Part shown: in pieces, positions 26,444 to 28,247 of the stretch
Position numbering within the stretch: position 1 is the stretch's first letter
Layout of the letters: each line of letters starts with the position of its first letter
NCBI RefSeq assembly: GCF_037031285.1
Contig: NZ_JAYEZO010000001.1
Coordinates: 620,001-684,000 of the forward strand
Source: Halobellus sp. LT62
GTDB lineage: Archaea; Halobacteriota; Halobacteria; Halobacteriales; Haloferacaceae
Reading direction: 5' to 3'
DNA length: 64,000 nt
Translations under genes and position numbers: made by a program
Notes under the pieces: generated by a model
What the model was told of the DNA's origin: nothing
The model's database searches: none
Seen by the model: the letters and a program-made list of their open reading frames with translations, nothing else

Positions 26444-26574
26444 ACCGACGATGCACTCGGCGGGGGTAAGTGCGTTCTCCTTTGTGGTAGCTTCGTTGGC
26501 TCCCCGCGACCGCAACGCACCGCGATCACCACCGAAGCGAAGCGCCTTAGCGCCCGCCGGGCTTGCAGGGGAGT

Positions 26575-27159
26575 ATGCACGAGAAGCGAGAGGTGGCTGT
26601 CCTCCGCTACGGCCACCGCCCCGGTCGGGACGACCGGATGACGACGCACGTCGGTCTCACGGCGCGTGCGCTCGGCGCGGATCGGGTGATCTTCCCCGAC
26701 AACGCCGGCCAGTCGCTGGAAACCGTCGAGGACATCACCGGTCGATTCGGCGGCCCCTTCGCGGTCGAACTGAGCGACGAATTGGACGCGACGATCCGGG
26801 ACTGGTCCGGGGCTGTCGTCCACCTCACGATGTACGGCGAGCGGGTTCAGGACGTCGAGAGCGACGTCCGCGAGGCGCACCGCGAGCAGCCGCTGCTCGT
26901 CGTCGTCGGCGGCGAGAAGGTCCCGTTCGAGGTGTACGAGGAAGCCGACTGGAACGTCGGCGTCACGAACCAGCCACACTCGGAGGTTGCGGGACTCGCG
27001 GTCTTTCTCGATCACCTGTTCGAGGGTCGAGAACTCGAACGAGAGTGGGAGGACGCCGATCGGCGGGTCATCCCGCAGGCGCGGGGGAAGCGCGTCGTAA
27101 ACGGCGGGACGACGTCCCGCCCCGTCGACGGCGACGACGGATCGCCGGACGCGAACTGA
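26575..27159 (+). CDS. tRNA (cytidine(56)-2'-O)-methyltransferase (aTrm56)
   Basis: 194-aa SPOUT-class methyltransferase that acts on C56 of the tRNA T-loop, found only in archaea. The start is MHEKREVAVLRYGHRPGRD, with HRPGRDxRxTTHV, the ARALGAD region and the knotted SAM site VVVGGEKVPFEVY and NVGVTNQPHSEVAGLAVFLD. The first AUG, 26575, is used, not the TTG at 26563. Acts on tRNA in the cytoplasm. Confidence 0.95.
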   Translation: MHEKREVAVLRYGHRPGRDDRMTTHVGLTARALGADRVIFPDNAGQSLETVEDITGRFGGPFAVELSDELDATIRDWSGAVVHLTMYGERVQDVESDVREAHREQPLLVVVGGEKVPFEVYEEADWNVGVTNQPHSEVAGLAVFLDHLFEGRELEREWEDADRRVIPQARGKRVVNGGTTSRPVDGDDGSPDAN

Positions 27160-27176
27160 CGAACGCTACTGTCCGA

Positions 27177-27605
27177 TTACTGCTCGTCCGGCGCACCACC
27201 GAGCGTTTTCACTTCCGGCGGGTCCGACGCGAACGGCATCTCAGTTGCCGGGATCTCCAGTTCTATCGGCTGCTCCTCGTCGAGTAAATACAGTTCTTTG
27301 AGCGTCTCGACTGCGTCTTCGATCGCCGCTGTTGCAGCGTCCTCGTCTTCAGCGTCGAGGACGCCGATTGTTCCGTTCCCGGAGGTCAGGACCGTCGCTT
27401 CGGGATCGGAAGAGGCGTACACGACTCCGGGGAACGTCGACTCGTCGTAGACCGCTCGATCCTCTCCGTACGCGATCTCGATCGAACCGAGTGCGAAATC
27501 AGTCTGATAGTGGTGATACCCGGCGGTAGTTCCTTCCTGCAGGTCGATATCCAGCTGTTCGACACGACTTCGGAGCTCCTCGACGGATACTCTCTCTGTG
27601 GACAC
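27177..27605 (-). CDS. TBP-repeat-like protein, single repeat
   Basis: 142-aa protein. Residues 57-105 match one TATA-binding-protein repeat: TFPGVVYASSDPEATVLTSG, GTIGVLDAEDEDAATAAIED and the helix AVETLKEL are the counterparts of FPGxVYRxxxP, the LIFxSGK strand and the end helix. Only one repeat is present, against two in TBP, and the Phe of IFxSG is replaced by Thr. The N-terminal 55 residues and the acidic tail have no match known to me. GTG 27605 is chosen: an AT-rich stretch ATAAATTTAT lies 26-35 bp upstream. A TTG at 27617 is possible. Divergent from tfe with a 111-bp shared promoter region. Confidence 0.7.
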   Translation of the reverse strand: MSTERVSVEELRSRVEQLDIDLQEGTTAGYHHYQTDFALGSIEIAYGEDRAVYDESTFPGVVYASSDPEATVLTSGNGTIGVLDAEDEDAATAAIEDAVETLKELYLLDEEQPIELEIPATEMPFASDPPEVKTLGGAPDEQ

Positions 27606-27684
27606 GGTCCGATACAATGTCTTCCATATGATAAATTTATACCGGTTAGTCGGAACTCATCCAGTCCGCCCCTTCATCCGCAAC

Positions 27685-27691
27685 TTTAAAA
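27685..27691 (+). promoter_or_regulatory. TATA box of tfe
   Basis: TTTAAAA, 26 bp before the tfe ATG, which implies a leaderless transcript. The opposite-facing ATAAATTTAT at 27631-27640 is the likely TATA of the TBP-like gene, so the 111-bp gap holds two promoters back to back. Confidence 0.7.
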
Positions 27692-27716
27692 CGACTGAGC
27701 GGCGCAACAGTTGATA

Positions 27717-28247
27717 ATGGCTTTTGAGGAGCTGCTGAACGACCCTGTCATCCAGAAGTACCTCCACGAGCTCGTCGGACCGACGGGGATGCCGGTGGCG
27801 GCGGCCCCTCCGGACGGCGAGGTGACCGACGAGGAACTCGCCGAGGAGCTGGGTCTGGAGCTCAACGACGTCCGGCGGGCGCTCTTTATCCTCTATGAGA
27901 ACGACTTGGCCGAGTACCGCCGGGTTCGCGACGAGGATTCGGGATGGCTCACCTACCTCTGGACGTTCCACTACGAGAACATCCCGGAGAACCTCCAAGA
28001 GGAGATGCTTCGGCTGCTCGACGCGCTGGAGGAGCGACTCGAGTACGAACGGAACCACGAGTTCTACCTCTCCGAGCCCGCGGGTATCCGTTTCGAGTTC
28101 TCCGAGGCGATGGAACAGGGCTTCCAGTGCCCTGAGACCGGCGCGCCTTTGGAGCCGATGGAGAACGACGACATGGTCGAATCGATGGAGCTGCGGATCG
28201 AAGAGCTTCGCGACGAACTCAACGTCGACGTGGGCCGAGACGACTGA
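27717..28247 (+). CDS. tfe: Transcription initiation factor E, alpha subunit (TFE), with degenerate zinc ribbon
   Basis: 176-aa general transcription factor that stabilises open promoter complexes. An extended winged helix (residues about 1-85, with LGLELNDVRRALFILYEND) is followed by a coiled region and the zinc-ribbon position. Only one of four expected cysteines is left: FYLSEPAG replaces the first CxxCG pair and QCPETGAPLE has lost the last one. Overlaps the next gene by one base. Its start is ATG 27717, with a TATA box 26 bp before. Functional loss is not implied, since the winged helix is complete. Confidence 0.92.
   Translation: MAFEELLNDPVIQKYLHELVGPTGMPVAAAPPDGEVTDEELAEELGLELNDVRRALFILYENDLAEYRRVRDEDSGWLTYLWTFHYENIPENLQEEMLRLLDALEERLEYERNHEFYLSEPAGIRFEFSEAMEQGFQCPETGAPLEPMENDDMVESMELRIEELRDELNVDVGRDD

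Follow-up and report, generated by a model that had tools for sequence, protein, structure and literature searches.

Proteins with a lone TBP lobe have been read as clues to the origin of the two-lobed TBP, and pairing of half-TBPs into a DNA-binding saddle has been proposed for the TBP ancestor. Archaeal single-lobe (monopartite) TBP-domain proteins were reportedly noted by Brindefalk 2013. Single-lobe TBPs do occur in archaea (PMC7221094), consistent with Brindefalk 2013, and no description of their function was found in the literature searched. Outside TBP, a single TBP-like lobe forms part of the nuclease in bacterial RNase HIII and RnlA toxins (PMC7221094), and remodelled TBP folds with DNA recognition unlike TATA binding are present in the poxviral proteins VETF-l and VITF-3l, large factors acting with the viral polymerase and a TFIIB-like partner (PMC12917281). 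Here we describe a haloarchaeal protein with a single TBP repeat, TBPL, encoded beside tfe in a 64,000-nucleotide stretch of Halobellus sp. LT62 DNA (the window).

The features of the locus are presented in Table 1. If the TBPL frame began instead at the TTG of 27617, the protein would be 4 aa longer. The putative TATA-like box of the gene lies at a distance that would suit a very short leader. The host genome (3.23 Mb, 3 contigs) also encodes two ordinary TBPs of two repeats each and six TFBs, as counted from 12 TFIIB repeats. With respect to the neighbouring TFE, the C-terminal zinc ribbon of archaeal TFE has four Cys; in the window protein this ribbon looked degenerate (region FYLSEPAGIRFEFSEAMEQGFQCPETGAPLE, one Cys in 16/16 congeners read), and the protein scored below the NCBIfam TFE cut-offs.

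Table 1. Features of the TBPL locus (window coordinates) and of two loci of relatives.
Feature	Position	Strand	Basis
TBPL, single-repeat TBP-like protein, 142 aa; GTG start at 27605, stop at 27177	27177..27605	-	ORF, Pfam, NCBIfam, phmmer, AlphaFold, Foldseek
TBP repeat of TBPL, residues 27-104, five strands and two helices of a half-saddle	27294..27527	-	AlphaFold secondary structure
Conserved C-terminal tail of TBPL, residues 124-136, PFASDPPEVKTLG	27198..27236	-	Alignments; in 5/5 window-type members, absent from TBP
Conserved N-terminal segment of TBPL, residues 8-19 (model helix 8-16), absent from TBP	27549..27584	-	Alignment, AlphaFold
Putative TATA-like box of TBPL, TATAAATTTATC, about 25-36 bases before GTG	27630..27641	-	Sequence
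TATA-like box of tfe, TTTAAAA, 26 bases before ATG	27685..27691	+	Sequence
tfe (TFE alpha), neighbour	27717..28247	+	Pfam TFIIE_alpha E 3.3e-20
trm56 (tRNA 2'-O-methyltransferase), neighbour, start codon uncertain	26563..27159	+	Pfam Trm56 E 6.5e-48
TBP-lobe/zinc-ribbon gene and uvrA in two congeners	L068 6460-10167; L069 6568-10222	same strand	Gene reading, Pfam

TBPL was matched by the Pfam TBP model PF00352 at E 3.9e-8 (33.5 bits, cut-off 22.9), and as this was the sole Pfam match, assignment to another protein family was rejected. NCBIfam TBP models also matched, all but one on the C-terminal repeat of the model, and a phmmer search against the PDB found M. jannaschii TBP at E 8e-11. An AlphaFold2 model built from 15 family sequences (pTM 0.79, mean pLDDT 84) placed strands at residues 27-32, 51-53, 60-66, 69-75 and 79-85 and helices at 39-46 and 88-104, arranged as in a single TBP lobe; a helix at the N-terminus (8-16) and a tail were additional. 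When this model was compared with the PDB using Foldseek, ranks 1-44 were all TBP or TBP-containing chains, with an rmsd of 1.4-2.4 A for matches aligning one repeat only, and matches from rank 45 on were unrelated. TBPL thus has the sequence and fold of a TBP domain (Pfam, Foldseek), with a single repeat in 142 aa rather than two in tandem, and the lone repeat recognized by eye in the earlier note is genuine. The structure prediction called for in that note yielded a half-saddle with TBP as its closest PDB folds, and the outcomes named there as speaking against the idea, loss of the saddle half or a match to another family, were not observed. The placement of the repeat at residues 57-105 was too narrow; its span in the AlphaFold model is about 27-104.

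The TBPL family descends from the C-terminal repeat (R2) of the modern two-repeat haloarchaeal TBP. In a tree of repeats all 15 single-repeat proteins (singles) formed one clade (100/99) within the haloarchaeal R2 clade (99/96), outside which the R2 of M. jannaschii fell. The tree comprised 93 columns only, with long branches and bootstrap not fully settled, and given these branches the exact placing of the singles within the R2 clade is less sure. A profile of the singles scored R2 at 93-103 bits versus 39-61 for the N-terminal repeat (R1), and the segment LNLNAxAIGLGLE is common to the singles and R2 and two residues longer than in R1. As the singles are nested within haloarchaeal R2, their source is a two-repeat TBP; descent from an ancestral half-TBP was rejected by both the tree and the R1/R2 profile scores.

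Searches that included families f1, f4 and f17 recovered 15 members in 15 genomes, each with one TBP repeat. In an order-wide profile search members were detected in 8/392 sampled genomes, scoring 161-192 bits over their full length versus at most 110 bits, mainly over the repeat region, for canonical TBP repeats. The window-type sub-group (n=5) consists of the window protein, that of the congener G432, two from Halorubrum and one from G124; in it Ser replaces the second Phe, and the tail has a pattern resembling PF[AS]...[PA]P.V.T[LI]G. The second sub-group is less diverged, and some of its members carry C-terminal zinc ribbons. A search of GTDB contigs with the single TBPL sequence gave no match, and a four-row profile retrieved the two Halorubrum loci only. 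Outside haloarchaea no member was found in 393 and 295 phylum-wide genomes, which is weak evidence as the profiles are haloarchaeal. No relative was found in IMG/VR, no match in a phage search and no relative of the window protein in plasmid records, where matches to a member from an Mre11 cassette covered at most 59% of the query, most of them under genes annotated as TBP; an origin as a virus or plasmid gene was rejected on these searches. GC3 of the TBPL gene was 0.68, versus 0.84-0.85 in tfe and trm56. Between the window and G432 protein identity was 53.5% for TBPL and 95.5% for TFE, dN/dS of TBPL was 0.39 for this pair and 0.145 for the Halorubrum pair, and the conserved tail was kept among relatives about 40-60% identical to each other. 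The family is rare, patchily spread and under purifying selection.

The DNA face was followed at ten positions (yeast numbering N159, V161, F190, R196, V203, L205, F207, K211, V213 and T215), which we take to be the DNA contacts of the yeast TBP-TATA structures; they were mapped onto the singles by alignment, least surely in strand 1. All ten were invariant in 45 haloarchaeal R2s. In the singles (11 representatives) 21% of DNA columns were kept versus 51% of 50 other R2-invariant columns, a selective loss with a column-wise p of 0.008 (0.016 without strand 1), whereas canonical haloarchaeal R1, used as a control, kept 9/10 (90%) of the DNA columns and 42% of the others. For the window type by itself (four representatives) the loss was not significant (p 0.083), nor was it for the window protein alone (2/10 DNA columns versus 17/50 others), in the latter because the entire protein has diverged. 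N159, V161, K211 and T215 were lost in 15/15 singles and R196 was mostly lost across the family; of the ten, only F190 and L205 have a retained counterpart in the window protein. Strand 1, which in TBP lies at the junction of the two lobes, is wholly replaced in TBPL. The stirrup Phe58 was kept in 15/15 singles and the second Phe in most less diverged members, and given the kept stirrup Phe some nucleic acid contact by the singles is possible. The Thr reported at an intercalating aromatic position was off by one: the residue there is Ser75 (yeast Phe207), preceded by Thr74. By our mapping Ser75 is position L5.1 of PMC7221094, which is almost universally aromatic (PMC7221094). TBPL lacks most of the concave-face DNA-contact residues of TBP and, with this TATA-gripping face remade, should bind no TATA DNA as a monomer or dimer. 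The TFB-contact acids of TBP are C.L3.2 and C.L3.4 (PMC7221094). At these positions of the C-terminal stirrup the window protein has Asp54 and Ser56, one of the two acids being lost; all window-type members (5/5) have D plus S/A/E, and the less diverged members are acidic in 9/10 and 10/10.

The gene starts of TBPL and tfe are separated by 111 bp (27606-27716), as had been stated; the reading of this spacer as a sign of joint control found no support, as the two TATA-like boxes are separate, some 44 bases apart, and the motif CTTTAAAACGACTGAGCGGCGCAAC ahead of tfe was essentially unchanged with or without TBPL in close congeners read at the site. TBPL was present in the trm56-tfe spacer in two of 17 congeners (L074-L090), the window and G432, in the same orientation. 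As these are not sister species, the gene was gained twice at the same site, was transferred, or was gained once and then lost several times. In five of the 17 the spacer was about 60-73 bases, TBPL-free, with tfe following trm56 directly; in two it held an acetyltransferase gene (GNAT-type), and in three it was about 600 bases without TBPL, with the stretch CCCGCCTTCTCGCGGGAATT recurring there, while more distant congeners fell into no clear class. This spacer (window 27160-27716) is a variable insertion spot in the genus. The linkage to tfe proved shallow when orthologues were sought, with the other relatives nowhere near tfe, and a conserved tfe operon or shared regulation was rejected.

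The neighbours of the relatives differed between loci. In G490 the Shango genes sngABC lie just upstream of the single-repeat TBP gene, about 100 bases apart (L070 3587-10168), and were identified by PADLOC (SngA E 3.8e-83, SngB 6e-172, SngC 3.8e-266); genes for Mre11 and a Rad50-like protein were seen further on in L070. In G292, G438, G491 and G493 (L042, L067, L071, L072) TBPL ends a cassette of Rad50, NurA, a 235 aa protein and HerA, with Mre11 also seen at the G292 locus. The cassette proteins were nearly identical among these four genomes of two families, pointing to recent horizontal transfer of what may be a module for defence or DNA processing. In two congeners of the window a gene for a TBP lobe with a double zinc ribbon lies directly upstream of uvrA (UvrA by Pfam). 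TBPL adjoins a PQQ-type beta-propeller gene in Halorubrum, a HEAT-repeat plus zinc-ribbon gene in G124 and an Orc1/Cdc6-like ATPase gene in G241. In G299 (L041 1-10274) a TBP-lobe plus zinc-ribbon protein lies within an island of kinase, PP2C-like, VWA-like and FHA-like genes (PP2C, VWA and FHA assigned by eye), which also has several zinc-ribbon proteins and PQQ-like propellers. Such differing neighbours would fit an adaptor with different partners, although adjacency is no proof.

We give roughly an even chance to the reading that TBPL represents the C-terminal lobe of a haloarchaeal TBP, separated on one occasion, since spread horizontally and serving as a protein adaptor that does not bind TATA DNA. 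R2 would have been detached once and then spread as a small protein-binding module, keeping the TBP-lobe fold while its concave face was remade and TATA binding presumably lost. Since the residues that hold DNA are replaced, TBPL is probably a borrowed protein-binding part rather than a miniature DNA-binding factor; we infer the absence of DNA binding, the adaptor role and the existence of a partner. The new N-terminal helix, the remade first strand and the conserved tail probably form the putative site for the partner protein. Partners would probably differ by locus (defence system, DNA-processing cassette, uvrA, beta-propeller, HEAT-repeat protein), and that of the window protein, not encoded next door, may be a general factor, for example one of the six TFBs.

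The protein adaptor is the best-supported mechanism, in our judgement about evenly poised, and its main rivals are TFB/TBP antagonism and a defence role. That TBPL modulates general initiation, the R2-derived lobe binding TFB (or TBP or TFE) and competing or redirecting, would be in line with its descent from the lobe that in TBP carries the TFB-binding acids (PMC7221094), with the retention of these acids in less diverged members and with the divergent arrangement with tfe in two species. The window protein, however, has Asp and Ser in place of the acidic pair (D plus S/A/E in the window type), most relatives are unlinked to transcription genes and the tfe core promoter is unaltered whether TBPL is there or not, and we regard such modulation as unlikely. 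A working half-TBP, in which two copies pair as a saddle and bind and bend DNA, is very unlikely: the modelled half-saddle and the universal Phe58 would suit it, but across the family the central Asn, Lys and Thr contacts, and mostly that of Arg, have disappeared from an intact fold, whereas canonical R1 keeps 90% of the contacts; Ser stands in for the second Phe, strand 1 is wholly replaced, and the family is derived from R2 rather than ancestral. The half-TBP of the earlier note, taken as acting on DNA, was accordingly not supported, 8/10 contact positions differing from canonical R2.

A defence-associated role, with the TBP look-alike acting as a decoy or sensor that registers viral attack on the transcription machinery and is paired with an effector at some loci, would be in keeping with the member next to sngABC, the four that end an Mre11-Rad50-NurA-HerA cassette and the patchy, mobile spread. 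The window protein and its closest relatives nevertheless adjoin no recognized defence genes, and adjacency by itself shows no function; we consider this role quite unlikely, and find equally doubtful its wider form, in which an R2 lobe without DNA grip would serve Shango, Mre11-Rad50-NurA-HerA and UvrA modules as a mobile decoy or sensor and the tfe-linked copy would stand alone. Finally, TBPL might be decaying cargo of little or no use that entered a permissive spacer by chance. The variable contents of that spacer, the low GC3 and the fast divergence from G432 agree with this, but the open frame, the dN/dS values and the conserved tail make it highly improbable. The protein adaptor remains our preferred reading.

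The haloarchaeal lone lobes point the opposite way from the use of such lobes as hints to the origin of TBP: their source is the C-terminal lobe of a modern TBP, with the fold kept and the DNA grip lost. Here a basal transcription factor would have been dismantled and one part of it put to new use as a mobile unit next to genes for defence and DNA repair, and what a TBP lobe unable to bind DNA does bind becomes a question answerable in tractable haloarchaea.

Compared with known systems, TBPL shares with R2 of canonical haloarchaeal TBP (PF00352) the fold, helix 1, the FPGxVY segment, helix 2 and phylogenetic origin, but it has one repeat rather than two, lacks the DNA-contact residues and adds the N-terminal helix and C-terminal tail. 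Like the lobes of RNase HIII and RnlA it is a single TBP-like lobe outside TBP; those lobes keep the L5.1 aromatic within a nuclease, whereas TBPL has Ser at the second Phe and no fused catalytic domain of the RNase HIII, DNA glycosylase or RnlA type, TBP being its only Pfam domain and zinc ribbons the only fusions among its relatives. With VETF-l and VITF-3l the likeness, drawn by description, lies in the remodelled TBP fold. As in the archaeal monopartite TBP-domain proteins, the entire protein is one TBP domain, and overlap of the family with the published single-lobe set is possible; to that set the present analysis adds the R2 origin, the erased DNA face, the zinc-ribbon fusions and the genomic contexts beside defence and repair genes.
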